From a virus: 46,345 bases of DNA. Both the position numbers and the translations under genes were made by a program. The notes under the pieces are model-generated. The model had not been told where the DNA came from, made no database searches, and was given only the letters and a program-made list of their open reading frames with translations. Position 1 is the stretch's first letter, and each line of letters opens with the position of its first letter. The stretch covers positions 1 to 46,345 of the IMG/VR virus record IMGVR_UViG_3300046003_004082; one strand, written 5' to 3'. Below are positions 13,257 to 37,504 of the stretch, one piece after another.

Positions 13257-16200
13257 TTATATTTCAGTATAAGTTATGCCTGTTAGGCGAACGGTTGCTA
13301 ATGTGCCACCCAAAGTAGCTCTAGCTAATAATCTTACATTACTATTATTTATGTCGGTTGTTACTGTAACAATATCATCGGCAGATGAACTTAACAAAGC
13401 ATATTGAGTAATATATGTGTTGGCGCCATCGTGCATAACTAAAATTTCTCCAGATGCAAAATGAGGACCACCGCTTAAATATGCTGTGGTTTTTGCAGTA
13501 TAAAGATATTTAGCAGATCTATAAACTGTACTACCAAATAAATCTAATACATAATCTCCGGAGTTATCAACATTTTCTATTACCTTTGTACCGGCACTTG
13601 CGCTAATAAGTATCTTATCATCAGTAGATCTAGTAACATTAATTAAACTATCACCTACAATTTCAATAACATCTGTAGATACAACATTACCAGATTTGCT
13701 TCCAACTAATTTTAAATTTGCGCCATTTGTTGGAATGGTGCCGGCCTGTATAGAAATATTATACGTTACATTGTCATATTCTTCAGGCTTAGGGATATTG
13801 TAATATAAAGTACCATCATTAGTAAACTGCCATCTATCAACGCTTTCATCCCATTTTAAATCTACGTCTGTACTAGTTCCACGATTAACAACAAAACTTG
13901 CATTAGATGAAGGTGATCCGGAAACTGAAGTTAATACAGTTATTTTATCGCCCGATAATTGTATATTATCTGCAGAGATAGAATATAAACCGGTAATGTT
14001 ACCCCCGGTTCCCGAACCAATAACTATATTTCCAGCAACATCTAAATTCTTATTAACTACAAACTTATCGCCGGTATTCGAATATGTAAATGTTGCATTA
14101 GCACCATTTATTGTAATACCGCCGCCATCTGCTTCTGCAGCATTTATTGCATTATTTGCAAGTACAATGTTTTTATCATTAATTGATACGGTTGTTGAAT
14201 TTACCGTTGTTACGTTACCGCGAATAGTTAAATTACCCGAAACAATTAAATCGCCAGTTGCGGTAATAGTTGTCGCAGTAATATCATTACTATTTAATGT
14301 ACCATCCACGGTTACATTGTTAAATGTAACTGATGCAGTAGGATGGACATTTTGCCCAATTGCGATAGTAGGATTGCCTGCTTGGGCATCTCCATCTGTT
14401 ACATAAACACCTGTACCCGCTGCGATAGAAACCGCAACCAACGTATTTGTTGCTCCTCCAACTTTTGCAACAAGCCCATTAGAAAAATCTGAAAATATAT
14501 TTTGTCTTGCATCTGATCTAGTATTTGCAGCAGTACCGCCACGTTCGATTGCTACATCTTTAGTACCAAGATATGCATTACCAACAAAATTACCAAAATT
14601 ATCAATTAAACGAATGCCGTTAATTGTAACAAGATTTGAATTAAGTACAATATTGCCCGTACCTAATAAAGATAATCTTGCAGTAGAATCTACGGTGCCT
14701 TCTCTATCATTATAGAAATGGATGTCGCTTCTTACATTAGGGCTATTATCTTTTGTTTCCGTAATTCGCATACCTGCGAATTTGTTTAGTGTACCATCTT
14801 TTAATACACCAAAGTAAATATTTGCAGTTTGTCCCGAAGTAAACTGTTGTACGTTTCCACCAAAGTACCCGTTAATCTCGGAGGCGGTACCTGGCGATAA
14901 ACGATTTACAGTAACAAACTGCGTACTTACAAGATTTGCTAAATCAATGCCGGCTGGATTGCCAAATTGATCTTGTATTTGTATGCCGCCACCGCCAGAG
15001 TCACTTATAGCTAAATTGCCCAAAAAGATTGTCTGTGCGCCAACATATATTCCGCGCCACAATTTGCTAGGTGATCCAATATTATAAACACCGCTAATTG
15101 CGGGTAAAATGTTACCTAAAACTGTTAGATTTTTATTAAGACCAAATCCGTCATCTGTTTGGCCATATGTAAATCTAGCATTAGCGCCGTCAATGTAGAT
15201 CCCAGAACCTTCCGCACTAGAAGGACTACCTGAATTTAAAGCAAGTGTTAGTGTTCTACTTTCTGTTCTTACATTGGAAACATTTAGTAATACTGCATTA
15301 CCTTGTACTGTTAAATCCCCACCTAATATTAAATCATCTAATTCGATATCTTTACGATATATTGCAGATTGAATATCTGCTGCTAATCTGTTTGAGGTAT
15401 AATAAAAATTATTTGAACCTTCAGTTAAATTATCAGTGGTAAAATTCGATAAGGATAATACTAAATTTGCTACATTCGATCTTTCGGCAAATTGTGCAGA
15501 TTGTGCTGCACCTACCGTTGCACCCGAATACCAATTTGTGCCAGACCAGGTAAGAACTTCACCTACATTTGCTATGCTTGTACTAACGTCGTACAATGCA
15601 TCAATACTCATTTGCGATACGTTAGCAAATACTCTACTATCAGTGTAATATAAATTACTACCTTCTGCTAAATTCGTAGTAGTAAAATTCGATAAGGATA
15701 ATACTAAATTTGCTACATTAGATTTTTCTGCAAATACCGTAGAATTTGCGACATTTGATCTTTCCGCAAATACTGTAGATAAGGAAATATTTGCGACATT
15801 TGATCTTTCCGCAAATACTGTAGAATTTGATACTGCAGCAAGTGTTGCAAAATTTGCAATATTTGCTTGATTTGCAACTAAAGCTACATTCGATATACCT
15901 GCAAGATTTGCAAAATTTGCATTAGTTGCGGTAGAAATTACGCCTACGTTACCAACATTTGAAGCTCTAGGTTCCCAAACGGATCCCGTCCACGTTAATA
16001 CGTATCCCAATGTAGGTGCAGTACTAACAGTATCTACATCAGCAAATACATTTAAACTTAAATTTGCTAAATTAGATACAACTCTGCTATTTCTATAATA
16101 TAGATTATTACTACCTTCTAATAAAGCATCTGTATTTAAATTAGATAAAGCATTTGAAAGATCAGAAACAGTAGGTACAATTCGTTCTACAAAGAAAGCT

Positions 16201-16856
16201 GATGCTGCAGAATTATATACTAATGCCCCACCGTTCGGATGAGCATCTATGATGTTGCCGGAATTTGGATGACCGGCTGGATAAATTTCATCTGTTACAT
16301 ATACATCGCGCAATGAACCTAGATGCGCTAATTTTAAATTAGCATATGCGCGAGAATCGCGGTAATATAAATTAACCGCGCCTTCGGATATAGAATCGGT
16401 AGTATTTGCAAAATTTGCAATTGCAGCTAAATTTGCAGAAATGGTACCTAAATTCCAGTCAACTATAATTGAAGGGGTACCTGCGGTGAATGCTCTTCTA
16501 GCTAAGGCGTTAGAGAAATAAAGGTTATTTGAACCTTGTGCTATATCATCCGTAGTAAGTGTTGCAAGATTTGCTGCTACTTGTCCAGGTGTCCAAATAT
16601 TACCCGTCCAAATTAAACCATATCCAATACTAGCTAAACTATTACCAGTATTGCTTCTAGTTTCAACATCAAATAAATCATTAATACTAGTTAATGATAA
16701 ATTTGCAAATACTCTACTATTAGAGTAATAAAGATTTGATACTTCTCGTACGTTAGCAGTAGTAAGAAAGGCGGATAAGTCCGCCAAACTAATATTAGCT
16801 AAGGCATTTGCCGCTGAACCGCCGCCGCCCTGTGAAAATACTCTTGCTTTTGTCAT
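13257..16856 (-). CDS. Large tail fibre protein
   Basis: A 1199-residue fibre. The first ~540 residues are repeats of the type NLYYSDSRVFANLSLTSIN[D]LFDV and SLSNFTT[TD]NL[AT]EGSN, plus a run of short VFAERSNVAN units encoded by a 45-bp-period DNA repeat. A second half holds two SGDL/GGDLTVQGN segments with TVSINDKNIVLANNA, shared with the fibre at 9070-13254. The C-terminus (about 1040-1199) is unique in the window. It is the first gene after a perfect TATAAATA late promoter and has GGAAAAAG before the ATG. It heads the operon running down to 5851. Confidence 0.8.
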   Translation of the reverse strand: MTKARVFSQGGGGSAANALANISLADLSAFLTTANVREVSNLYYSNSRVFANLSLTSINDLFDVETRSNTGNSLASIGYGLIWTGNIWTPGQVAANLATLTTDDIAQGSNNLYFSNALARRAFTAGTPSIIVDWNLGTISANLAAIANFANTTDSISEGAVNLYYRDSRAYANLKLAHLGSLRDVYVTDEIYPAGHPNSGNIIDAHPNGGALVYNSAASAFFVERIVPTVSDLSNALSNLNTDALLEGSNNLYYRNSRVVSNLANLSLNVFADVDTVSTAPTLGYVLTWTGSVWEPRASNVGNVGVISTATNANFANLAGISNVALVANQANIANFATLAAVSNSTVFAERSNVANISLSTVFAERSNVANSTVFAEKSNVANLVLSLSNFTTTNLAEGSNLYYTDSRVFANVSQMSIDALYDVSTSIANVGEVLTWSGTNWYSGATVGAAQSAQFAERSNVANLVLSLSNFTTDNLTEGSNNFYYTSNRLAADIQSAIYRKDIELDDLILGGDLTVQGNAVLLNVSNVRTESRTLTLALNSGSPSSAEGSGIYIDGANARFTYGQTDDGFGLNKNLTVLGNILPAISGVYNIGSPSKLWRGIYVGAQTIFLGNLAISDSGGGGIQIQDQFGNPAGIDLANLVSTQFVTVNRLSPGTASEINGYFGGNVQQFTSGQTANIYFGVLKDGTLNKFAGMRITETKDNSPNVRSDIHFYNDREGTVDSTARLSLLGTGNIVLNSNLVTINGIRLIDNFGNFVGNAYLGTKDVAIERGGTAANTRSDARQNIFSDFSNGLVAKVGGATNTLVAVSIAAGTGVYVTDGDAQAGNPTIAIGQNVHPTASVTFNNVTVDGTLNSNDITATTITATGDLIVSGNLTIRGNVTTVNSTTVSINDKNIVLANNAINAAEADGGGITINGANATFTYSNTGDKFVVNKNLDVAGNIVIGSGTGGNITGLYSISADNIQLSGDKITVLTSVSGSPSSNASFVVNRGTSTDVDLKWDESVDRWQFTNDGTLYYNIPKPEEYDNVTYNISIQAGTIPTNGANLKLVGSKSGNVVSTDVIEIVGDSLINVTRSTDDKILISASAGTKVIENVDNSGDYVLDLFGSTVYRSAKYLYTAKTTAYLSGGPHFASGEILVMHDGANTYITQYALLSSSADDIVTVTTDINNSNVRLLARATLGGTLATVRLTGITYTEI
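15744..15824. repeat. 36-bp direct repeat, two copies at 45-bp spacing
   Basis: Bases 15744-15779 and 15789-15824 are identical over 36 positions and encode the VFAERSNVAN unit of the fibre protein. A third, diverged copy lies just below at about 15700-15743. Confidence 0.85.
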
Positions 16857-16880: not shown

Positions 16881-16888
16881 TATTTATA
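16881..16888 (-). promoter_or_regulatory. T4-type late promoter, perfect TATAAATA
   Basis: The minus strand reads TATAAATA followed by ATAGA, 25 bp upstream of the ATG at 16856. It lies in the 153-bp gap after the glycosyltransferase gene. The rest of that gap shows no convincing terminator; it contains a short palindrome TTCATATGAA near 16967. Confidence 0.8.
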
Positions 16889-25315: not shown

Positions 25316-25323
25316 TATTTATT
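25316..25323 (-). promoter_or_regulatory. T4-type late promoter, AATAAATA
   Basis: One mismatch from TATAAATA, 26 bp upstream of the ATG at 25290. It overlaps the stop codon of the 50-residue gene upstream, the same stop-overlapping layout as the promoters at 275 and 41220. Confidence 0.6.
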
Positions 25324-25471
25324 GCGGAAATAAAGGCTTTTTATTTGGTTTTTTCGAACCTATTTCCCTGTTTTTATTTAGATTAGATTTGCCTGTGGGT
25401 GTAGTATGTTTAACGCCCCTGGATATAAGTCCAGCAAGTAAATTTTCTCTTAGATCTTTTAAAGTTTTCAT
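25319..25471 (-). CDS. 50-residue basic protein with capsid-targeting-like start
   Basis: A short gene. It reads MKTLKDLRENLLAG at the start and then a basic, Lys/Asn/Pro-rich tail (KPNKKPLFPQ). Its ATG overlaps the TGA of the preceding gene as ATGA, so translation is coupled, and the reading frame ends in TAA. The start resembles the T4 capsid-targeting sequence MKTYQEFIAEA and has L-R-E at residues 6-8, matching the gp21 cleavage rule [L/I]-x-E, though two residues earlier than usual. If cut there, a ~42-residue basic peptide would be left inside the head, like small T4 internal peptides. The gene is inferred from coupling and the N-terminal motif; the packaging is a prediction. Confidence 0.6.
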   Translation of the reverse strand: MKTLKDLRENLLAGLISRGVKHTTPTGKSNLNKNREIGSKKPNKKPLFPQ

Positions 25472-25917
25472 ACTTTATTTTTACTACTTAATCGTTTTCT
25501 TTCAATGTCCCGTATCTTAGGCATTAACTTATCTGGTAAATTTTTAATACGTTTTAGTGCAGCTGATATTCTAGCTTCTAACGCATTCTTTTCCGAAGCA
25601 GATAATTCACCTTTAGTTCTGCCCTTTAAAAACTTATTCATTAATATTTTTCTTGCTGATACAGTTGCTCTACGTTTTAATACATTAGTTGCAGCTGATC
25701 TTTTTAATTTTACATTTCTTGCGATTGCAAGCATAGTTTTTCTAGAGCGCATTTTTTGTCCGCGTTTTAATCTTTCGGTTGCGGATAATGCTTCATCTAA
25801 AACAAAGTCACTTTCATCAAATAACTCAATGACATCTTCCCATTCTAAAGATTCAATTAAATTGTCAATTTCTTCTTCAGAAATTTCATTTACATCGTAT
25901 TCTCTAAAGCTAATCAT
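25468..25917 (-). CDS. Basic virion structural protein, T4-like phage family
   Basis: Started at the ATG at 25917, which overlaps the upstream stop as ATGA; an ATG eight codons earlier would lie inside the upstream gene. The 149-residue product has an acidic first third (ISEEEIDNLIESLEWEDVIELFDESD) followed by a strongly basic, helical rest: ATERLKRGQKMRSRKTMLAI, RRATVSARKILMNKFLKGR, LPDKLMPKIRDIERKRL. The motif set R-x-K-R-G-Q-x-M-R ... A-R ... P-x-[I/M]-R-x-[I/L]-E-R is one I associate with a structural or prohead-core protein of aquatic T4-like phages. The acid/basic split would suit a scaffold or DNA-contacting core protein. Flanked by Dps and the 50-mer in one operon. Confidence 0.6.
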   Translation of the reverse strand: MISFREYDVNEISEEEIDNLIESLEWEDVIELFDESDFVLDEALSATERLKRGQKMRSRKTMLAIARNVKLKRSAATNVLKRRATVSARKILMNKFLKGRTKGELSASEKNALEARISAALKRIKNLPDKLMPKIRDIERKRLSSKNKV

Positions 25918-26351
25918 TTTGCAGTCGCCTTTAACATCCAACCATGTTTCTGATGCATATCTATTCTATCTTGTAAGAAATTAGCTAGCCCCAATTCCGA
26001 TGCCTTGTCGGCTTCTTGATATGCTTGCATTAATGAAATAATAACAGTATTATTATCTACAATTAAATTATTTACCATCGATTTCGCATCCGGTACACCA
26101 GTTAATGTTTCCATTACAGTAGATAATCCTGTTAATTCTGCCAACGATACAGGGGTGTAACTATCCATTGCTCTAAGATGTTCGGCAATAGGGTCAACCG
26201 CATTGTATAATTCTTCATACAAGTTTCCAAAGAATTCATGTAGTTGCGGAAAAAACATTCCTTCTACATTCCAATGATATGTATGGGTTTTAAAATACAT
26301 TACAAATGTATTTGCCAATACTTTTTTAAGCGCTGTTTGCAATTCATCCAT
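25914..26351 (-). CDS. dps: Dps-like ferritin (DNA-protecting, iron-oxidising)
   Basis: A 145-residue four-helix protein of the Dps branch of ferritins. The intersubunit ferroxidase residues are present at the family spacing: H26 in TYHWNVEG, H38 in LHEFF, D53 and E57 in DPIAEH. The intervals 12, 15 and 4 are the same as those of E. coli Dps (H51, H63, D78, E82). Dps forms 12-mer shells that oxidise Fe2+ with peroxide and shield DNA. The basic N-terminal tail of E. coli Dps is missing, so DNA binding may be weak. The gene starts one base after the nucleotidyltransferase stop, with GGAG upstream, in a late operon. This suggests it is made with the virion proteins. Confidence 0.9.
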   Translation of the reverse strand: MDELQTALKKVLANTFVMYFKTHTYHWNVEGMFFPQLHEFFGNLYEELYNAVDPIAEHLRAMDSYTPVSLAELTGLSTVMETLTGVPDAKSMVNNLIVDNNTVIISLMQAYQEADKASELGLANFLQDRIDMHQKHGWMLKATAK

Positions 26352-26352
26352 C

Positions 26353-28206
26353 TTATGGCTCCAATTGATTCACTTTTTTCATCATTTTATATGAAGGAGA
26401 ACGGGTCGAACTAAATTCTAATTGATCTCTATGGACATCTTGTCTGTCTTTTTCATGTGCTACTGCCAATTTTTTATTCATCGGCTCGTTCATAAATGTT
26501 TTGAAAGATATCAAGCCTACCGGTTTTCCGTCAATGGTTTCATCATGTATAGGGTTATCTATTCCATGGAACACATCTTTAATGTCCGAAAAATTAATAT
26601 CTCTATTATGAGTAGGTGGATCCGGCTCATAAATCTCTTGTATCTTTTTGCGGAAGTTAGAGTAATTGGGTTTCATAGTTCTATTTTCTTTAACAACTTG
26701 TTTGTCGGTTATTATTCGGGCTGGATGCACTTTACGGTTATTTCCTTGTGCTTCTATTTTTATTGCATAGTCTGAAGTATCAACACCTTCAGATGTGTCT
26801 TCTGCCCCATAAGTATTAATAGTTGATCCAATCTCATTTGCAAAGTTTGTATCCTTATGCATACTTAAATTTGACATAATTGTCAAATGCTTTTCCATGT
26901 ATGCAAGGTCTTTATCCGGATAACCTAACATATTTAAAGTATCATGTGCAATTGCAAATTTCATTATAAAATTATGCACTGTTTCTTGATCTGCATAGCC
27001 ATTTTTCATTGCGGCTTTTTCTATTCCTAAATATTGATCTGTTGCTTGTATTGCCTGCAGTACAAATTTAGGATTAAGTTTAGAGTTTGCCATCAACTCT
27101 TTAAGTTGCTTAGATGCATCTGCACACATATGAAGATTTGTTGTTTTATAATCTTGATATGTTATTTCTTTTTGTGTACTTAACATTTCGGATAATGCCT
27201 CTTTAGACATTAGAAGAGCTGCTTTTTGCTCACTAAATCTTTTCTTATATGTTATTACCGGTTCAGATATTTTTGAGCTAAATGGTTTGCCAGTATGTTC
27301 AACAATGTCTTTTAACCAATGCTTAACTGTTTGTCCATTTTCTAATTTCATAGTAACATAGGTAGATCCTCTAAAAACAATTGGACCTATATCTCCATTA
27401 GTAGTTTCTACAACTTCATTTAATTTAAAAATTTCGTCATTAATATACGCTTCTCTAATAGAAACGCACATTCCCTTTTCTTGACTCCAAGTTTCCCCGG
27501 GTGTTACGCATTCCGTAGGTTTGTTAGGAGTTATATTTTGCATATATTTTGTACCGCCTGGAGTACCCCAATCAAATCTGTAAGGATTTTCATAATCCTC
27601 AGTTACCTTTTTCTTAGGTTGTAATCCCGTCTTTACATCATCGAATACTTCTTTTGCGTGCTCAGTATTTGCAGCAAGTTTTGTAGGAAGATTCTTTTTG
27701 AATTCTTTAAAATTATTATTGACTGCGTGATTCCGCATATCCGTTCCAGATATACCTTCAGTTCTTTCACCGGTACTTGCAGTAGAGATAGATTTAAAGT
27801 TGTAAAAACCATGTTTACCGTGTTTACCATTATATTCTTTAATTCTGTCGTAATCTTCTGTGCGATCTGCGCCACTAGCAAGAACTACATGCTTATATCC
27901 TTGATCGTGAATATTTGATAACTGATGAAAAATTGTAGGATGTTGCTTGTCTGAAGTTTTAATATTTACAGCAGGAAAGGCTCTCTGCAGATGTTTTAAT
28001 TTTTGTGCAGGAGCCAGCGGATTCTTTTTATTATCTTGCGAATGTGAAGCAATAACCAAATGATCCGCATTATGTTTTTTTGCGAAACCGGTCATTCCAT
28101 TGATATTCTCCTCATGACCACGGGTCATTGGATTCATGCGACCATTCAAGACGACAATCGTGTCTTTTTTGGTTGACTCTTCTTTAATGTAGTCTTTAAA
28201 TTTCAT
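26353..28206 (-). CDS. Capsid-targeted nucleotidyltransferase (HxGH/NMNAT-like) fusion protein
   Basis: A 617-residue protein. It begins MKFKDYIKEES, a capsid-targeting-like leader with I-K-E at 7-9. Residues ~15-175 are a Rossmann-type adenylyl/cytidylyltransferase domain: VVLNGRMNPMTRGH at 18-31 holds the HxGH-family motif as T-R-G-H, and GISGTDMR at 151-158 is the phosphate-binding [S/T]-x-T-x-x-R motif. Residues ~250-306 form a small barrel-like segment (VFRGSTYVTMKLENGQTVKH). The remaining half is helical and unrecognised. Such enzymes join a nucleoside monophosphate to a phosphorylated acceptor such as NMN, FMN or pantetheine phosphate; the substrate cannot be told. It follows a perfect TATAAATA promoter and heads an operon with Dps. 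Confidence 0.75.
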   Translation of the reverse strand: MKFKDYIKEESTKKDTIVVLNGRMNPMTRGHEENINGMTGFAKKHNADHLVIASHSQDNKKNPLAPAQKLKHLQRAFPAVNIKTSDKQHPTIFHQLSNIHDQGYKHVVLASGADRTEDYDRIKEYNGKHGKHGFYNFKSISTASTGERTEGISGTDMRNHAVNNNFKEFKKNLPTKLAANTEHAKEVFDDVKTGLQPKKKVTEDYENPYRFDWGTPGGTKYMQNITPNKPTECVTPGETWSQEKGMCVSIREAYINDEIFKLNEVVETTNGDIGPIVFRGSTYVTMKLENGQTVKHWLKDIVEHTGKPFSSKISEPVITYKKRFSEQKAALLMSKEALSEMLSTQKEITYQDYKTTNLHMCADASKQLKELMANSKLNPKFVLQAIQATDQYLGIEKAAMKNGYADQETVHNFIMKFAIAHDTLNMLGYPDKDLAYMEKHLTIMSNLSMHKDTNFANEIGSTINTYGAEDTSEGVDTSDYAIKIEAQGNNRKVHPARIITDKQVVKENRTMKPNYSNFRKKIQEIYEPDPPTHNRDINFSDIKDVFHGIDNPIHDETIDGKPVGLISFKTFMNEPMNKKLAVAHEKDRQDVHRDQLEFSSTRSPSYKMMKKVNQLEP

Positions 28207-28233
28207 GAGATCTATTAGAATATAATGTTCTAT

Positions 28234-28241
28234 TATTTATA
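28234..28241 (-). promoter_or_regulatory. T4-type late promoter, perfect TATAAATA
   Basis: The minus strand reads TATAAATA followed by ATAGA, 28 bp upstream of the ATG at 28206, in the 51-bp gap after the gene at 28258. Confidence 0.8.
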
Positions 28242-28257
28242 TGTTTTGATTGTTTGG

Positions 28258-29934
28258 CTATCTAGCTATTTGAGCTACGGATATACGAACAGATGGTATT
28301 GCTGGAGCAAAAGTAGTACTAGGAGGAGCATCCAATCTAACACTAGTAGAATCTGCCGCCCAATATATCTCAAATCTATCATTAAATACCATACTAACAA
28401 AAAAGTTACCAGCAAGAACTGTTTCTACTCCATTTCCAGTAATTGATACTCTTCTTGCGGAAAGAGGAATATCTAATCCGTTTTTTCTTGCCCAAACCCA
28501 TACGTCTTTTGCAGCTGCATTCGTAGATACTAATTGTAAATTATATTGAATATCATATAGGCCATAATTGCCATTCATTAAGATATTTGCCCCGTTTGCA
28601 AATATACCATTCGAAAAATTAACTATGTTATATGTAATAGCATACGGCGTGTTTATGACGTTTGCAGTTTGGGATACGTTGCTAGAGAACACGCCATATG
28701 GTCTTCGATATTCGATAGTTGGTCTCACTAACAGTATACCATCTCCCACATCTGCATGTATAACTGCCGCCACAGAAATAACTGCATTTGGAGAAGTTGG
28801 GCGGACTTTTGTAAGTGCACCGGGGATACCAGGATGTCCCCATAGTAAATCTCCGCTATACCAAACTTCATTAACTAAATTTCCGGTAGTATTAAGATTC
28901 CTAACTTCACCAAATGTCGTTGCTCTACCTATAGTATTGGGGAGTACGTCAGTTGTTAAAACTCCAACCGTGTACAGTTGATCTGCGGTAGTATTTGATA
29001 TATACGGTTTACACGTAACAACAAAATTACATGCCTCAAATTGCACGTTCGCCCCAGTATCAATGACTCCGGCAAATTCTACAAACGTACCATTGTATAA
29101 TACATTACTAGTATTATTATACACTCGTATATATTGTTCTAGTCCAACCTGCAATACCGATCCATCTTTATGATATATGTCTAAGCAATCTTGCACGGTA
29201 TTCCATGCAGTTAACCCAGGAACAACATTTGCATTTGCACCATACCCATTGGTATCATACCGCATTGATCTAATAGGTCCTTGATCTCCGCTAACTTGAC
29301 CAAAGAAAAATTTACCATACGCATCGCCGCGTGGATCAGGATTCCACCTAAGAACTTGATCTGTATTTCCTATAGATGATCTATCAACATCGTCCAACAT
29401 CCTAAATTTAGTTTCACCGGATCCTGGTCCAGCTACTGCGATTTTGCCAATTGTTGCTTCTAGAAATTTTAATTTACGTTGTATGTCTTCAAAATTCTTT
29501 GATACTGGATCAGGGTCGGGCTGTTGAAAACTGTCCTTCGGTGCCTCACTTATAAATTGGGCGGCTCTTTCGGCAAGAGTTTTTTCGATGGTTGGGGTGG
29601 GGATGGGTATTTCTTCAACAATGGAGGATTCTTCGATGGTGTTCTTTTGTACCAGCTCATTTAGTATCTCCGTTTCTGGTTCATTTAAAATAGACAATAC
29701 TTCATCTAACGTAGGCGGCAAGGGATATTCAATAATTTCAATTATTTCCTTTTCCAAATTAGCAGTCTTAAACGCTTCCATTAGGTCATTTAACGCATTT
29801 TTCTTTATTGACGCGTGCGCATCTTTTTTAATGGAATTAAATGATTCGACCTCTTTAATTAATGCCGGATCGATTTCTTGACCTAACGATTTGGCAAATT
29901 TAGCCAAAAGCTCTTTTTCTTTAATACTTTTCAT
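28258..29934 (-). CDS. Virion structural/fibre protein with C1q/TNF-like C-terminal domain
   Basis: A 558-residue protein. Residues 1-150 are helical and acidic with a Pro-rich hinge (EEIPIPTPTIEKTLAERAAQF), then a coiled coil (NFEDIQRKLKFLEATIGKI). A middle part (FRMLDDVDRSSIGNTDQVLRW) resembles attachment segments of marine phage fibres. The last ~130 residues (from about 425) look like a C1q/TNF-type jelly roll: YDIQYNLQLVS, VWVWARKNGLDIP, a central SVMVF-like strand, FEIYWAADSTSVRLDA. Such domains often form trimeric receptor-binding heads. It is separated by a 58-bp gap from the HAD gene and may share its transcript; AGG precedes the ATG. Whether it is a tail or head fibre cannot be settled. 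Confidence 0.65.
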   Translation of the reverse strand: MKSIKEKELLAKFAKSLGQEIDPALIKEVESFNSIKKDAHASIKKNALNDLMEAFKTANLEKEIIEIIEYPLPPTLDEVLSILNEPETEILNELVQKNTIEESSIVEEIPIPTPTIEKTLAERAAQFISEAPKDSFQQPDPDPVSKNFEDIQRKLKFLEATIGKIAVAGPGSGETKFRMLDDVDRSSIGNTDQVLRWNPDPRGDAYGKFFFGQVSGDQGPIRSMRYDTNGYGANANVVPGLTAWNTVQDCLDIYHKDGSVLQVGLEQYIRVYNNTSNVLYNGTFVEFAGVIDTGANVQFEACNFVVTCKPYISNTTADQLYTVGVLTTDVLPNTIGRATTFGEVRNLNTTGNLVNEVWYSGDLLWGHPGIPGALTKVRPTSPNAVISVAAVIHADVGDGILLVRPTIEYRRPYGVFSSNVSQTANVINTPYAITYNIVNFSNGIFANGANILMNGNYGLYDIQYNLQLVSTNAAAKDVWVWARKNGLDIPLSARRVSITGNGVETVLAGNFFVSMVFNDRFEIYWAADSTSVRLDAPPSTTFAPAIPSVRISVAQIAR

Positions 29935-29992
29935 TGACTACCTATTGACATGATGTTATCATTTGCTATGTATCCTATTAAATATTCTACTT

Positions 29993-30595
29993 TTATTCTA
30001 AGGGTTTAGATTCATTACCTTGTACGTGATGTGCATAAAACTGGGTTGAAGGATGTTTAGAACGTAGCTGTAAAAAAGTCTTTAAATTAGACTTACTGTC
30101 ATCGTACATATGAACATCGTTATACTTATGTTTATTGATGTAGCCATGAATAACGATTGCTTTTTTCTCAGCAGGAGTTCCTTCTTTATTGATGTTACCT
30201 GCGCGAATTACGTGTATCTTAGACATATTGATACCGTGTTTTTTGAATGTACCTAAAAACTTATTCTTATCGTCAAAATTTGCTCTTGCAGTGTTAAATA
30301 TTACATGGTGGTCTGTTTTAGATGTAACATCCTTTACCTTATTTATCATGCTATGTATAGGAGTAGATTCTTTACTAAATTTTTCAGCGTTTCTAAATTC
30401 GCCAAAATCATAGCTATGCCCCTTAGGTAGATGATGGTCGTTAAACTCTTGATTAGTTAGAGACTTTACCGTCTTACCTTGAGGATTTTTAACATGGATT
30501 TTTGCTGTTGTATGTAGTAGTGTATCGTCAATGTCAAAAATATGCAATGATTTTTTACCAACAGCTTCAGTTAAAAAAGACTTAAAAGTTTTCAT
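29993..30595 (-). CDS. HAD-superfamily phosphatase with capsid-targeting-like start
   Basis: The start is set at 30595, where TAATG joins the upstream stop to this ATG; an ATG four codons earlier is inside the previous gene. The 200-residue product begins MKTFKSFLTEAVG, an almost exact T4-type capsid-targeting sequence (T4 IPIII begins MKTYQEFIAEA), with L-T-E then Ala as the predicted gp21 cut. The rest is a HAD hydrolase: FDIDDTLL at 20-27 (nucleophile D21, acid D23), FNTARANF as motif II, a conserved Lys region PAEKKAI, and MYDDSKSNLKTF as motif IV. HAD enzymes remove phosphate from small molecules or nucleic acid ends. The substrate is unknown. Confidence 0.8.
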   Translation of the reverse strand: MKTFKSFLTEAVGKKSLHIFDIDDTLLHTTAKIHVKNPQGKTVKSLTNQEFNDHHLPKGHSYDFGEFRNAEKFSKESTPIHSMINKVKDVTSKTDHHVIFNTARANFDDKNKFLGTFKKHGINMSKIHVIRAGNINKEGTPAEKKAIVIHGYINKHKYNDVHMYDDSKSNLKTFLQLRSKHPSTQFYAHHVQGNESKPLE

Positions 30596-30891
30596 TAGCA
30601 ATTCCACTTACGCAGAGCTTTATTTATTCTTGAATCAGGATCATTTGCTGTTTTTGCAGAAGTCAATTTAGACTTCATTCCGCCCATACGAGCACAAAAA
30701 GACTTACGTCGATTTGCAGCTTTGCTACCAGGTTTTAGTTTCGACGGTTTAGTAGTAACGGCAGTTTGTAATTTACTACCCGGATTTTCTCGTCTATAAG
30801 CCATAACACCGGCCTTAGTTAATCCGCCTTCAGGATTTTTATACTTATTATCCTGCCAATCTTCGTCTAAATATTCTTTGAATGTTTTCAT
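30595..30891 (-). CDS. Small basic protein with capsid-targeting-like start, T4-like phage family
   Basis: A 98-residue protein starting MKTFKEYLDEDWQD with L-D-E at 8-10. After the leader comes a conserved basic core: GGLTKAGVMAYRRENPGSKL, then SKAANRRKSFCARMGGMKS and a final DPDSRINKALRKWNC. I recognise this core from many T4-like and other phages, sometimes without the leader; its function is unknown to me. Two cysteines (in SFCARM and at the C-terminus) and many Lys/Arg fit nucleic-acid or metal binding. Its ATG overlaps the upstream stop as ATGA, and its TAA overlaps the HAD start as TAATG, so the three genes are translationally coupled. Confidence 0.7.
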   Translation of the reverse strand: MKTFKEYLDEDWQDNKYKNPEGGLTKAGVMAYRRENPGSKLQTAVTTKPSKLKPGSKAANRRKSFCARMGGMKSKLTSAKTANDPDSRINKALRKWNC

Positions 30892-32060
30892 TTGTTTAAA
30901 TTCTGTCCAGAGAAACCTTCTTTACTTCTATTTACGACTTTAGCTACCGAACCATCTTTATAACCAACTACAAATCCTTCCGGATTCGTAGGCTTACCGT
31001 TAATAGTGTGTTTTTGATTTTGACCTGAGTTTTCTAAAGTCTTTAATAGAATATTTTTTGCTTTATCTAAATGTTTATGTGCATTAAATAATTCGCCAAA
31101 ATGTTCTTTATTCTTTTCTACATGATGTAGCATTTCTAATTTCTCATTAAATTTACGCATCTTTGTTTCTGGTCTTTTAACTTTTTCTACTTCTTTTTGC
31201 ATTGATTCATCTAAATGTGACGCATATCCTGCAGTGCTAGGAGTTGCGCCCGTTCGCACTGTTTTGTTTATATATGTTTGTAGATGAGGAGTGTGTCCTT
31301 CTACTAATTGATTATGCTGTTTAATATTTCCTAGATGTTCTTTTGCTTTGGAAAGATGTTTTGCAAAATCTTTTCTATCATTTAAATTGTAATCGACATT
31401 TTTTTTATTTAATTTATTATGAAAAATATGTACATCTGAACTATTGTGAAATTTCGAAGTATCTACTTCGTACTCTGGCTCTGGCGTATCAATTCTAGTA
31501 TGCAACGATACACTTATTTTTGCTCGTTTTACTGCCTTGCCTTCTTCCGAATTTGCAGGATAATGATATTTAATTAAATTTTCTTTATGAGTTATCTCAT
31601 CGCCTTCTTGATTAATTGTTTTATCTTTTTTACTGCCCATAAAGTCGCCCTGATACACACCATGTAACGGTGACAGAATCTTTTTACCGTGTTCTAATAA
31701 CTGACCCATTTTAGATTGCAATCCTGCAGAGTGTCCAAATTTCTCATTTACGTCATCTTGATTAAACGCATACCCCTTTGTAGCGCCTTTATATGCCACA
31801 CCAAATTCTTTACTACCGGATTTGGGATTTTTAACATATCCCATTTCGAAAGAAGGTGATCCATCTGCTTTAATGACTACTGCCTTGGTGGCGGATGGCT
31901 CTCCGGATAGATGTTTGTGTAATTCCTCTAATCTAGATACATCAGCTTCAGATTCTTTTTTGCCAAAGAAGTGAGCCTCGCCTCCAAGATGAGTTAAATG
32001 TTTTGTTGCTTTAGATTTTTCAGCAACTTCTTCTGATAGAAAATTAAGAAATGTTTTCAT
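30888..32060 (-). CDS. Capsid-targeted, ligase-like nucleotidyltransferase candidate
   Basis: A 390-residue protein beginning MKTFLNFLSEEVAE, with L-S-E at 8-10 as the predicted prohead-protease site. V-I-K-A-D-G-S-P-S at 62-70 matches motif I (K-x-D-G) of the DNA/RNA ligase and capping-enzyme superfamily, whose lysine (here K64) takes the AMP or GMP. H-G-V-Y-Q-G-D-F at 133-140 could be motif III, and near the C-terminus E361-G-F-V-V with V-A-K-V-V (K374) resemble motifs IV and V. A ~160-residue Lys/His-rich helical stretch separates III from IV, longer than in known ligases. The catalytic call is an inference from motifs. It starts one base after the gene at 32062. Confidence 0.6.
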   Translation of the reverse strand: MKTFLNFLSEEVAEKSKATKHLTHLGGEAHFFGKKESEADVSRLEELHKHLSGEPSATKAVVIKADGSPSFEMGYVKNPKSGSKEFGVAYKGATKGYAFNQDDVNEKFGHSAGLQSKMGQLLEHGKKILSPLHGVYQGDFMGSKKDKTINQEGDEITHKENLIKYHYPANSEEGKAVKRAKISVSLHTRIDTPEPEYEVDTSKFHNSSDVHIFHNKLNKKNVDYNLNDRKDFAKHLSKAKEHLGNIKQHNQLVEGHTPHLQTYINKTVRTGATPSTAGYASHLDESMQKEVEKVKRPETKMRKFNEKLEMLHHVEKNKEHFGELFNAHKHLDKAKNILLKTLENSGQNQKHTINGKPTNPEGFVVGYKDGSVAKVVNRSKEGFSGQNLNK

Positions 32061-32061
32061 A

Positions 32062-33075
32062 TTAATGCTTTAACAGAGATGCGCCAGGTTTAGCGATAAA
32101 TTCCGGTGTCTTTGTTGGTCTACCTTTATTTACTGCTTGGATATTTAATAAAGGTTTTCCACCTTTACCGGTAATAGACATAGTTGTGCCTTCGCCCTTT
32201 TTAACCGATAATTCGTCTTTGTGATCTGCTAAAATTTTATTATAGTGTTCTCTGGTATCAATTATACTATGTTTACCTTCTGAATTCGTACTTGCCATTA
32301 ATACTTTAGTATTAGTTGGTCCTGCAATATGATTTAACACTTGCTTATGTAATTCGCTTGGAGTCATTTTACTTAAATGTTTATGTAGCGTATTAATCAT
32401 CTCTACTCTAGATGAGTGTGAAGATTTTTCTATAGCATCCCCGACATCCGTGCCTCGCAAGGCTTTATATCTAGTGTGCATTTCTGCAGCAGATGTGGTT
32501 TTGCTTGCGCCCAAAACCTTTCTAACCGCCGCCATATGTCCTTCATGGGGATTGGCTAATTTAGTATGATCTACACCATATGTGTCGGACAATGTCTTTG
32601 GAGTTTTATTCTTAAGAGTAGGGGCATTATTCGCGTATTTCATACTAAAACCAAGATGCTCAACAGTACCTTTTGGTTTGGTAGAACCGGCACCGTGCAC
32701 CAAAGTAGTCATCAAATCCGATTCATTGTTTGGATCCTTTTTGCCGGTAAAATGCTCAATATCTTTAGTTTGAGATGTCCACGCAGTCTTATCTACTTTA
32801 CCTTTAAATCCGCTGGATTTTATAAAATTGTGTAAATGTCCTGCCATTTCCTTCGCATGTGTACTAATACGATCGTAGGTTTCGGGGCTAACCTCATCCT
32901 TTAATTTATTATGTATATCTTCAGGCAATTGTCCTTCTTCTCGATAGGATTCTACGTGCTTTCCTTTGTTGAAATGCATGCCTGTTAGTAGCTCATGTAA
33001 TTTACCCTCTGCGTCGGATGCTTTTCCTGTTTCTCTTGCCGCTTCTATGAGAAAAGATTTGAATGAAGTTATCAT
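32062..33075 (-). CDS. Capsid-targeted protein, possible PD-(D/E)xK nuclease
   Basis: A 337-residue protein beginning MITSFKSFLIEAARE, with L-I-E then Ala as the predicted gp21 cut site. A helix with EGKLHELLTG (E23 or E28), then NNESDLMTTL (D120) and HLGFSMKYAN (S144-x-K146), give the order E ... D ... [S/E]-x-K seen in restriction-endonuclease-fold enzymes of the type with G-[F/I]-S-x-K. The C-terminal part (about 150-337) is basic and helical with a short final strand pair (TTMSITGKGGKPLLNIQAV). It is the first gene after a perfect TATAAATA promoter and heads the run of capsid-targeted genes. Nuclease activity is a hypothesis; being a virion protein is better supported. Confidence 0.55.
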   Translation of the reverse strand: MITSFKSFLIEAARETGKASDAEGKLHELLTGMHFNKGKHVESYREEGQLPEDIHNKLKDEVSPETYDRISTHAKEMAGHLHNFIKSSGFKGKVDKTAWTSQTKDIEHFTGKKDPNNESDLMTTLVHGAGSTKPKGTVEHLGFSMKYANNAPTLKNKTPKTLSDTYGVDHTKLANPHEGHMAAVRKVLGASKTTSAAEMHTRYKALRGTDVGDAIEKSSHSSRVEMINTLHKHLSKMTPSELHKQVLNHIAGPTNTKVLMASTNSEGKHSIIDTREHYNKILADHKDELSVKKGEGTTMSITGKGGKPLLNIQAVNKGRPTKTPEFIAKPGASLLKH

Positions 33076-33103: not shown

Positions 33104-33111
33104 TATTTATA
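33104..33111 (-). promoter_or_regulatory. T4-type late promoter, perfect TATAAATA
   Basis: Lies 29 bp upstream of the ATG at 33075, directly after the terminator at 33128-33153. It marks the boundary between the early/accessory region above and the late virion region below. Confidence 0.85.
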
Positions 33112-35960: not shown

Positions 35961-35989
35961 ATTATAACACCTTTTTTGCTAGGCGTCAA
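35961..35989 (-). promoter_or_regulatory. Early sigma-70 promoter: TTGACG-17-TATAAT
   Basis: The -35 box (35984-35989) lies inside the last codons of the carboxypeptidase gene, the -10 box at 35961-35966, spacer 17 bp. It drives the YkuK-like gene and the tRNA-Thr to tRNA-Gly stretch. Confidence 0.9.
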
Positions 35990-36899
35990 GCTCTTTTTTA
36001 CGGTTATCTATAATATGATTGTACATAATATCCTCTACTTTGCGTATACGTTCATATTTATCTTTGGCTCCAAGTATTACGACAGAATACATTTGTCCGT
36101 GTCGTTCTACTGCCAAAGCCAAACAATACCCCGCATGACTAGTAAATCCCGTTTTGCTAACAACAATTGTATTGAATTCAAAAAGAACAGGCCTATTTGT
36201 ATTATTCAAAGTAATTGTTCTAATTTTTTTCTTATAAATTGTTTCAATTTCAATCTGCTTCTTTGTACTAATCTCACGTATAATAGGATATGATGCAGCA
36301 TTTGCAACCATTGTTCCTATATCTATAGCAGTTGCTTGATTTTTAGCACTTATACCTGAGGGGTCATCAAACGAACTACTTATCATACCAAACTCTAAAG
36401 CTTTTCTATTCATTTGTTCTATGAACATTTTTCTTCCGCCAGGATATGCATTAGCTAAAGTTTCTGCAGCAGAATTATCACTCTTAACTAACATAGCACT
36501 CAAAATCTCATATCTAGTAAAATTCTTTTTTCTCGGTAATGATCCGCCGACATTTGAATTAATTTGCATTACTTTAGTTAAATCTTTATCATTATCAAGC
36601 GATACCATTGCTGTCATTAATTTAGTAACACTTGCAAAAGGCCTAATTTTATTTCCATTCTTAATATACTCATGTGTCTTTGTAGTATCATTGAATACTA
36701 AAATACTCGTAGTATCTGTACGAATTATTCTTTTCTTTTTAATATGCTTGTGTGGTTTAGCGTATGCACTCGCACAACATAAAATTAAAGATGTGAATAA
36801 AACTATGGCGCCCCGCCACGGAATCGAACCGCGACTAACAGTTTTGGAGACTGCTGTGCTGCCACTACACCAGCGAGACTTGGTTGTTGCAAATATCAT
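35979..36899 (-). CDS. Secreted D-Ala-D-Ala carboxypeptidase (peptidase S11, DacA-like)
   Basis: A penicillin-binding-type serine peptidase. From the ATG at 36899 the catalytic motifs are S90-V-T-K93 (nucleophile), S140-D-N142 and K249-T-G251. These enzymes trim the terminal D-Ala of peptidoglycan stem peptides in the periplasm. A signal peptide (IVLFTSLILCCASAYA, 32-47) lies after 31 residues encoded through the tRNA-Trp gene. The only ATG in frame before the signal is at 36899, with AGGAG seven bases upstream; no ATG, GTG or TTG lies between the tRNA and the catalytic domain's signal peptide. The 3' CCA of the tRNA leads directly into ATA-GTT. It lacks the C-terminal membrane anchor of PBP5. 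The catalytic call is firm; the start is not. Confidence 0.8.
   Translation of the reverse strand: MIFATTKSRWCSGSTAVSKTVSRGSIPWRGAIVLFTSLILCCASAYAKPHKHIKKKRIIRTDTTSILVFNDTTKTHEYIKNGNKIRPFASVTKLMTAMVSLDNDKDLTKVMQINSNVGGSLPRKKNFTRYEILSAMLVKSDNSAAETLANAYPGGRKMFIEQMNRKALEFGMISSSFDDPSGISAKNQATAIDIGTMVANAASYPIIREISTKKQIEIETIYKKKIRTITLNNTNRPVLFEFNTIVVSKTGFTSHAGYCLALAVERHGQMYSVVILGAKDKYERIRKVEDIMYNHIIDNRKKELDA
36806..36879 (-). tRNA. tRNA-Trp(CCA)
   Basis: Acceptor GTCTCGC/GCGGGGC (two G-U pairs), D-stem GTGT/GCAC, anticodon loop CTCCAAA, T-loop TTCGATT, discriminator G as in Trp, encoded CCA at 36806-36808. It lies on the same strand as, and in frame within, the first 32 codons of the carboxypeptidase reading frame. 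Confidence 0.95.
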
Positions 36900-36934: not shown

Positions 36935-37504
36935 ATGAATCCATATATAGAATTAGAAATATCAATTGATGCGTCTGAAGATGAGATAAAAATCAAATTT
37001 AGATCTTTAGCGCAAATTCATCATCCCGACAAAGGTGGGGACGAGGAAGTATTCAAACGCATAAAATTAGCATACGAAATTCTGATTGATCCTATTCGCA
37101 GAAAAGAATATGATCTATTAGGTGAAGCGGATTCAAATCAAAATATTAAACAATCGGCATTAGATCATATCGCACAAATGTTACATGCAATTGTTCCAAA
37201 TTTTAATCCCGAAAACGATGATCTAATTACTATTATGGTTGGCCAAATTAATCAAATTAAAGTTGATATGGCTAACAATATTATAGTATGTGAGCAATAT
37301 ATATCACAACTAGAAAAAGTTATACGTAGAATAAATTCAAAAAATAAAAATCGCAATATACTGTTAGATGTTGTTCAACTTCAAATAAAACAACGTAAAC
37401 AGGAATTTGAAGATTTCAATACACGTATTAAAATTTGTAATCTTGAATTGGAAATACTTAAAGACTATTTTTATGGGCTTGAAGAATTAGTAGCAATCAA
37501 TTAA
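36935..37504 (+). CDS. J-domain (DnaJ-like) co-chaperone
   Basis: A 189-residue protein and the only convincing plus-strand gene in the window. Residues 1-65 are a J-domain: NPYIELEISIDASEDEIKIKF, the catalytic H30-P-D32 loop in IHHPDKGGDEE, and helix III-IV AYEILIDPIRRKEYD. The HPD loop stimulates Hsp70 (DnaK) ATP use. The remaining ~120 residues are helical and look like a coiled coil (LEKVIRRINSKNKNRN, QLQIKQRKQEFEDFN), with no zinc fingers, so it is a class C J-protein. It may direct host DnaK to phage replication or assembly. No Shine-Dalgarno is visible. Its TAA overlaps the stop of the convergent gene at 37501. Confidence 0.85.
   Translation: MNPYIELEISIDASEDEIKIKFRSLAQIHHPDKGGDEEVFKRIKLAYEILIDPIRRKEYDLLGEADSNQNIKQSALDHIAQMLHAIVPNFNPENDDLITIMVGQINQIKVDMANNIIVCEQYISQLEKVIRRINSKNKNRNILLDVVQLQIKQRKQEFEDFNTRIKICNLELEILKDYFYGLEELVAIN

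Follow-up and report, generated by a model that had tools for sequence, protein, structure and literature searches.

Enzyme-like proteins with a predicted T4-type capsid-targeting leader in an environmental T4-like phage

Several genes in one late block of an environmental T4-like phage, each predicted to encode a different kind of protein, begin with much the same ten residues; what does this shared start do? We analysed a 46,345-base fragment of a T4-like myovirus (IMG/VR record IMGVR_UViG_3300046003_004082, positions 1 to 46,345; hereafter the window), in which the N-termini of five proteins resemble the capsid-targeting sequence (CTS) of T4 internal proteins (IPs). The five are a protein with a nuclease-like fold, a DUF6267 protein with a ligase-like fold, a small basic DUF6321 protein, a predicted HAD-superfamily phosphatase and a predicted nucleotidyltransferase. 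They are very probably internal head proteins of the T4 type with enzymatic cargo, which would be made late, cut, packaged and delivered.

The leader, its probable protease and a homologue found in virions

In T4 IPIII, residues 4 and 7 direct capsid targeting and residues 8 and 10 direct processing by the gp21 protease (PMC9026906, section 2.6). We encoded these four positions of demonstrated role in a strict pattern, M-x(1-4)-[FY]xx[FY][LI]xE, and kept it separate from a loose criterion, [L/I]xE anywhere in residues 6-11. When any start in the first 40 codons was permitted, 5 of the 51 open reading frames (ORFs) in the window fitted the strict pattern (starts at 33075, 32060, 30891, 30595 and 28206), all within one late gene block. 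With conservatively chosen starts, 4 strict leaders were observed against a mean of 0.01 in shuffles of residues 2-30, and 0 of 2000 shuffles reached 4. As a positive control, T4 ipII and ipIII fitted the strict pattern; T4 ipI starts with MKTFKEF and has no cut site at position 10. The loose criterion gave 7 window proteins versus 2.0 expected; it was dropped as stand-alone evidence because longer relatives showed no clear enrichment.

An earlier note on this DNA had counted six genes with a T4-type start. All six N-termini were found in place, each with [L/I]-x-E as described; five fitted the strict pattern, and the sixth (start at 25471, MKTLKDLREN) has L-x-E with neither aromatic residue. 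Its relatives are all near-identical, and it was excluded. A gene outside that list (25468-25917) has a degenerate leader, and its orthologues carry the full one (Table 1).

The leader was then followed through relatives of the window proteins. In DUF6267 orthologues with 52-65% identity to the window protein, most leader letters are replaced (MIKFESFLLEA, MISFFQYLTEA, MIEFSEFLAEA, MKSFIEFLSEE), [FY]xx[FY][LI]xE is kept and the linker after the leader varies in length; the core leader was present in every distinct close relative. It was found in 21 of 34 distinct relatives of the nuclease-like protein, collected by a pattern that ignored the leader, and several members of this family have a second [L/I]xE just ahead of the conserved domain. 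Five of the 7 HAD phosphatase sequences compared and most relatives of the nucleotidyltransferase also carry it. Across ten T4-like phages and long contigs, 32 of 1712 ORFs fitted the strict pattern, nearly all of them clustered with homologous genes. Of the control patterns, the one with K for E matched 0 of these ORFs and the one with Q for E matched 1; the reversed pattern matched 2, a pattern lengthened by one residue 2 and one with the E moved 7.

One contig (G012:84750-87622, also L296) has five consecutive unrelated genes, including those for DUF6267 and the HAD phosphatase, that begin [MV]KTFK[EQ]Y[LI][ER]E. Their leaders are identical at 22-29 of 30 nucleotides, versus only 3-10 of the 24 nucleotides before and only 3-15 of the 33 after. 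These leaders differ synonymously and their flanking DNA is unrelated. In the window, the leaders have many codon differences while the amino-acid pattern holds. Judged from the sequences, the leader is under selection: its letters change, its pattern is kept, its flanks are unrelated and its cargo is strongly basic. The median isoelectric point (pI) of 56 representative cargo proteins was 9.4, versus 6.0 for other phage proteins (p 3e-10). The leader proteins of the window have pI 8.6-10.6, and the leaderless neighbours (Dps and the products of genes 24310 and 28258) are near 5. T4 internal proteins are likewise basic (PMC9026906).

The window phage is a freshwater-type T4 relative; the sequences closest to it are contigs from IMG/VR, among them two of 190 and 222 kb. 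Peptidase S77 (gp21) was present, with E below 1e-34, in the near relatives G001, G002, G038 and G039; the nuclease-like proteins of G038 and G039 have 76 and 74% identity to that of the window. The nearest relative, G003, begins about 1.3 kb before gp23, and the place expected for gp21 lies beyond the contig start. In 29 other contigs (28 from the leader scan and 1 from a control scan), gp21 was found in 8, exactly those with gp23. The N-terminal segment of gp23 reads LFE/T in G001-G003, FLTE/T in phage C48C1 and FLTE/A in T4 (here and below, a slash follows the E of [L/I]-x-E); thus, the L-x-E site is kept in this lineage. C48C1 (complete genome, Kyanoviridae) has five ORFs with the leader and a sixth with a near-match, and gp21, gp22 and gp23 are present. 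The annotated start of its cytidyltransferase (L193:13448-14857; OQ984149.1 63448-64857), at 63514, is internal and hides the leader; translation from a GTG at 63448 recovers both the leader MIKNFSQYLLEE and the N-terminal region of the domain.

Virion data were available for a homologue. The passages of Sullivan et al. (2010, PMC3037559) on T4-GC190, a putative cytidylyltransferase, report its detection by mass spectrometry in purified virions of cyanophage S-SM1, and list it as encoded by S-PM2 yet undetected in S-PM2 virions. The S-SM1 protein, SSM1_190, has a perfect leader at its start, MKKFSAFLNE/AERSF, and the window nucleotidyltransferase is its homologue (29% identity, E 2e-33). In S-PM2 (L366:43632-44804), the C-terminal part of DUF6267 and the cytidyltransferase form one fusion, with no leader anywhere in the open frame; a separate short DUF6267 gene lies upstream of it. 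The leader is also present on the cytidyltransferases of Syn9 (MKKFSAFLSE/A) and S-SM2 (MKSFFQFLSE/A). The S-SM1/S-PM2 contrast played no part in building the hypothesis, and the S-SM1 virion data are independent support for leader-driven packaging; they concern a leader-bearing homologue, not the window phage.

Cargo domains and the gene block

The earlier note had guessed a ligase-like protein, a possible nuclease, a HAD phosphatase and a nucleotidyltransferase, and folds and motifs bore these guesses out, in the case of the possible nuclease as a PD-(D/E)XK-nuclease-like fold. The AlphaFold model of the DUF6267 protein had a predicted local distance difference test score (pLDDT) of 90, with a disordered leader end. 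All 50 matches listed by VIA-align (50/50) were RNA or DNA ligases, the best being NgrRnl (Z 9.6), with T4 Rnl1 at 8.8. Ligase motifs I (KxDG, K64-x-D66-G67), IV (EG, E361-G362) and V (K374) were invariant in 23 sequences. By these motifs and the modelled adenylation-domain fold, the protein is a predicted member of the ATP-dependent RNA/DNA ligase superfamily. The model of the nuclease-like protein (pLDDT 86, leader end also disordered) matched HinP1I best (Z 9.4 over 212 residues), then MspI (8.0), and many lower matches were PD-(D/E)XK enzymes; E28, D105, D120 and S144-x-K146 are invariant. In both models the leader is predicted as a short helix.

HAD motifs I-IV (D21-x-D23-x-T25, T102, K144/K145, D165-D166) were invariant in 7 sequences, and whole-protein Pfam scores were under the curated cut-off. 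The nucleotidyltransferase motifs are complete, with invariant GR-NP...GH and an S153/R158 motif. A PDB profile search with this protein gave only weak matches to phosphopantetheine adenylyltransferase and UPF0348, and so no substrate was assigned. PDB sequence-profile searches with the DUF6267, HAD and nuclease-like alignments revealed no relatives, and isolate phages gave no direct tblastn match to the HAD protein or to the nuclease-like protein. Relatives often have DUF6321 as the C-terminal part of a larger protein with the leader, as in leader-HicA-DUF6321; the domain may be a module for the head or for DNA binding. One such gene, L086:12007-12630, encodes a leader, a HicA-like toxin domain and a C-terminal DUF6321.

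To see how far the leader has spread, we scanned public viral contigs with the exact DNA pattern for MKTFxx[FY][LIFM]xE[ADE]. The pattern occurred in at least 120 contigs; among the matches listed, 120 of 125 were open for at least 60 codons, and 98 of the 120 contigs listed have two or more ORFs that resemble T4-like references. A complete scan with a shifted control, in which the second half of the pattern was moved by one codon, gave 21 contigs, of which 9 had at least two T4-like ORFs; 9 of its 21 matches were open for at least 60 codons. The E-to-K control gave 51 contigs (12 with at least two T4-like ORFs) and was partly contaminated, by 21 copies of one family and by sequences that are probably genuine leaders but have their cut site one residue further on (e.g. 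MKTFKDYLIKE/S).

With the leader removed, 123 proteins of at least 40 amino acids (aa) among the matches listed fell into 68 clusters without detectable similarity. In an alignment of 63 representatives, mean column identity was 6%, and invariant columns lay in the leader alone, where the search pattern itself imposed M, K, T, F and E. The earlier note had proposed a search for the leader on unrelated cargo in relatives; it was found on these 68 clusters, mostly in T4-like contigs. Recognised cargo included nucleotidyltransferases (some fused to P-loop kinases), DUF6267, HicA plus DUF6321, HD (SpoT-like), GNAT, lytic transglycosylase, lysozyme, Pnkp-like kinase, HAD and Acb1; the majority had no known function. 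The Acb1 anti-CBASS phosphodiesterase (L133:2104-2571; Pfam E 3e-23) has a perfect leader, MKTFREYLAE/A, and two H-x-T motifs. T4 Acb1 (gp57B) starts with MMEFKDFSTG and has no [L/I]xE. A search for more leader-bearing Acb1 genes revealed one other homologue only, 34% identical, with the match starting after the leader region. PADLOC, applied to the cargo, gave a single marginal match, and one leader protein (L126) had a weak ART match.

Coordinates of the gene block are given in Table 1. The motif TATAAATA occurs 3 times in the window versus 12 expected, always on the minus strand and 32-36 nt before an ATG. The claim that all the leader genes lie behind late promoters held for gene strings and not for single genes: two TATAAATA promoters, of the late gp55 type, head two strings of leader genes, and there is no promoter per gene. 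The Dps gene, placed by the earlier note in the same operon, lies in the second string. Dps was rejected as leader cargo, with the leader in 0 of 16 relatives and none in the window copy.

Table 1. Leader genes, neighbouring genes and late promoters in the window
Feature	Coordinates	Strand	Evidence
Leader MITSFKSFLIE/A; 337 aa, PD-(D/E)XK-nuclease-like fold (HinP1I/MspI-like)	32062..33075	-	Strict leader, model, VIA-align, invariant residues
Leader MKTFLNFLSE/E; DUF6267, ATP-dependent RNA-ligase-like fold	30888..32060	-	Pfam DUF6267 E 1e-49, motifs, model
Leader MKTFKEYLDE/D; DUF6321, small very basic domain	30595..30891	-	DUF6321 E 5e-20; pI 10.6 after leader
Leader MKTFKSFLTE/A; predicted HAD-superfamily phosphatase	29993..30595	-	Weak Pfam HAD match; PHROG 'polynucleotide kinase' E 7e-9; motifs
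Leader MKFKDYIKE/E; 617-aa cytidylyltransferase-like (HxGH-family) nucleotidyltransferase	26353..28206	-	CTP_transf_like E 2e-4; PHROG cytidyltransferase E 5e-48
149-aa basic protein, degenerate leader MISFREYDVNE	25468..25917	-	Orthologues MISFKEFIKEE, MINFKDFIEEE, MKQFKEYLEEG; pI 9.9
50-aa basic protein MKTLKDLREN, leader not established	25319..25471	-	L-x-E, no aromatic targeting residues
Dps/ferritin-like, acidic (pI 5.1), no leader, second gene string	25914..26351	-	Ferritin E 1e-22
T4-type late promoter -10 element TATAAATA, heading first leader string	33104..33111	-	36 nt before ATG at 33075
T4-type late promoter -10 element TATAAATA, heading second leader string	28234..28241	-	35 nt before ATG at 28206

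The third TATAAATA, at 16881-16888, precedes a large structural gene (13257-16856) by 32 nt. Elsewhere in the window, an ORF at 35979-36899 resembles D-alanyl-D-alanine carboxypeptidase by eye, with an SVTKL motif and a signal-like segment; since the start of its longest frame overlaps a tRNA-Trp gene (36806-36879), the true start is probably downstream. A plus-strand ORF at 36935-37504, opposite to nearly all other genes, has a J-domain-like start (HHPDKGG).

Proposed mechanism and alternative explanations

The proposal of a T4-type capsid-targeting leader on enzyme-like cargo withstood the chance estimate, the control scans, the comparison of orthologues, the search for gp21 in near relatives, the analysis of cargo charge, the T4 control and the S-SM1 mass spectrometry. 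In the mechanism we propose, each protein would be synthesised late with a CTS of roughly ten residues, the two aromatic residues of which would dock it to the prohead core. Inside the prohead, gp21 would cut after [L/I]-x-E and free a basic mature protein, which would stay with the packaged DNA and exit the head together with it. The leader would be a movable address label, placed by one lineage on many unrelated cargo domains. Synthesis, docking, the gp21 cut and packaging rest on the exact correspondence with T4 and on the S-SM1 proteome, and support for packaging and cutting is good. We infer cleavage in the window phage, and also ejection into the host, the latter by comparison with T4 IPs, which enter the host by injection and do their work in its cytoplasm, as in the action of IPI against GmrSD and of IPIII on ECOR17 (PMC3012670, PMC9391042).

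The cargo set (a PD-(D/E)XK fold, an RNA-ligase fold, a HAD phosphatase, a nucleotidyltransferase and the basic DUF6321) would fit processing of nucleic-acid ends. It is most likely delivered for use in the first minutes of infection, for instance on RNA or DNA ends that host defences have cut and that it could mend. The ligase fold and HAD phosphatase, together with Pnkp-like kinases that carry this leader elsewhere, suggest a function in repairing nucleic-acid ends against host nucleases; we put this specific role forward tentatively, as possible but rather doubtful. A wider proposal, for which the balance of probability falls slightly short of even, is that environmental T4-like phages use the CTS as a general, transferable label: fused to nearly any small enzyme, it would load their heads with a changing arsenal that acts before phage genes are expressed, the window arsenal being an RNA/DNA end-healing and end-sealing kit against host nucleases. 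With the same nearly even expectation, the arsenal at large might comprise ligases, nucleases, phosphatases, kinases, nucleotidyltransferases, Acb1, a SpoT-like hydrolase domain, and HicA-like and lytic enzymes.

Some observations weigh against packaging and delivery of these enzymes. gp21 was not found in the 46-kb window fragment. Orthologues without a leader exist (HAD in L150; DUF6267 in L056, L087, L113, Syn1, S-SM1 and S-PM2), which shows that these families can do without packaging. The S-SM1/S-PM2 contrast is a single pair, from different studies. Foldseek gave no match under E 0.001 for the DUF6267 model or the nuclease-like model; both fold assignments therefore rest on the second aligner and on invariant motifs. 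The nuclease-like protein has S-x-K where most of the PD-(D/E)XK superfamily has E-x-K, and with S in place of E/D before x-K its predicted nuclease activity is uncertain.

The leader might bring the proteins into the prohead for a role in the scaffold core or head assembly only, with no enzyme delivered to the host. T4 core proteins are also gp21 substrates (PMC9026906), and the protein at 25468-25917 has an acidic N-terminal part with several [L/I]xE sites and a weak match to a head scaffolding PHROG (E 0.0055). However, distant relatives keep complete HAD (D-x-D-x-T, T, K, DD), ligase (KxDG, EG, K) and nucleotidyltransferase motifs, and the anti-CBASS Acb1 and the SpoT-like hydrolase domain among other leader cargo are hard to explain as scaffold. 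We consider a purely structural role unlikely.

A destination other than the head (membrane, baseplate or replication complex), with mere resemblance to a capsid-targeting sequence, would accord with the predicted short helix and with the fibre-like structural genes that adjoin the block. Against it stand the exact match to the functional T4 positions, the [L/I]xE cut site shared with the gp23 of the lineage, the late promoters, the basic cargo and the leader-bearing homologue in virions, and it is very unlikely. The shared start could also be a recombination scar or a translation-initiation cassette copied between gene starts, with no function in the protein, as the near-identical leader DNA of the five adjacent G012 genes might suggest; but the DNA on either side is unlike, there are synonymous differences, and the window leaders differ at many codons. 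Moreover, orthologues swap most leader residues yet keep the aromatics, L/I and E, and changing E to K or altering the spacing removes most of the signal. Such an origin is extremely unlikely.

If the CTS is such a general label, the leader alone would list the injected proteins of any such phage from sequence. Injected proteins are known for very few phages and hardly for uncultured ones; with a readable tag of ten residues, they could be looked up in a database. Candidate counter-defence enzymes of the first minutes can be drawn from the cargo list, which includes Acb1, whose anti-defence role is known, and many families to which no function has been assigned. The leader also offers a simple explanation for the cytidyltransferase in S-SM1 virions. 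Many related environmental phages appear, from their sequences, to load other enzymes by the same tag, and phages that use the leader probably inject ready-made enzymes together with their DNA.

Comparison with known systems

T-even internal proteins are diverse cargo with only the CTS in common (Rao and Black 2010, PMC3012670). In openly licensed PMC papers we found the CTS idea for T-even phages, no survey of it in environmental phages and no report linking the virion location of the S-SM1 protein with a CTS. Judged by the searchable literature, both the enzymatic nature of the cargo and its range among environmental T4-like phages are new.

The window proteins share with T4 IPI, IPII and IPIII a ten-residue leader in which positions 4 and 7 are aromatic, position 8 is [L/I] and position 10 is E, commonly followed by A at 11, as well as basic cargo and the use of one leader on non-homologous cargo; gp21, encoded by T4, was found in near relatives of the window phage. 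Unlike the T4 cargo, which consists of small inhibitors or proteins of unknown function, the window cargo is larger and enzyme-like, and its lineage is far from the T-even phages. T4 Alt is an enzyme, an ADP-ribosyltransferase, that is packaged in the head, cut by gp21 and injected; however, its propeptide is shorter and outside the strict pattern, and the window cargo has no ADP-ribosyltransferase. S-SM1, Syn9 and S-PM2, with T4-GC190 and T4-GC71 (DUF6267), share with the window the gene order gp41, DUF6267, cytidyltransferase; in the cyanophage regions examined the leader is on the cytidyltransferase only, whereas in the window it is on five genes.

The DUF6267 RNA-ligase fold, the HAD match to a polynucleotide kinase PHROG and the Pnkp-like P-loop kinases on other leader proteins recall T4 Pnkp/PseT and Rnl1, although PDB profile searches gave no sequence match of the window proteins to solved ligases or Pnkp. 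T4 makes Pnkp/PseT and Rnl1 after infection, and neither is known to be a head protein. Polyvalent proteins and MuF-type injected effectors (Iyer et al. 2017, PMC5512222) are likewise diverse enzymes packaged in virions for early conflict with the host. They are long multidomain proteins or portal/MuF fusions, whereas the proteins described here would be single enzymes with a detachable ten-residue address.

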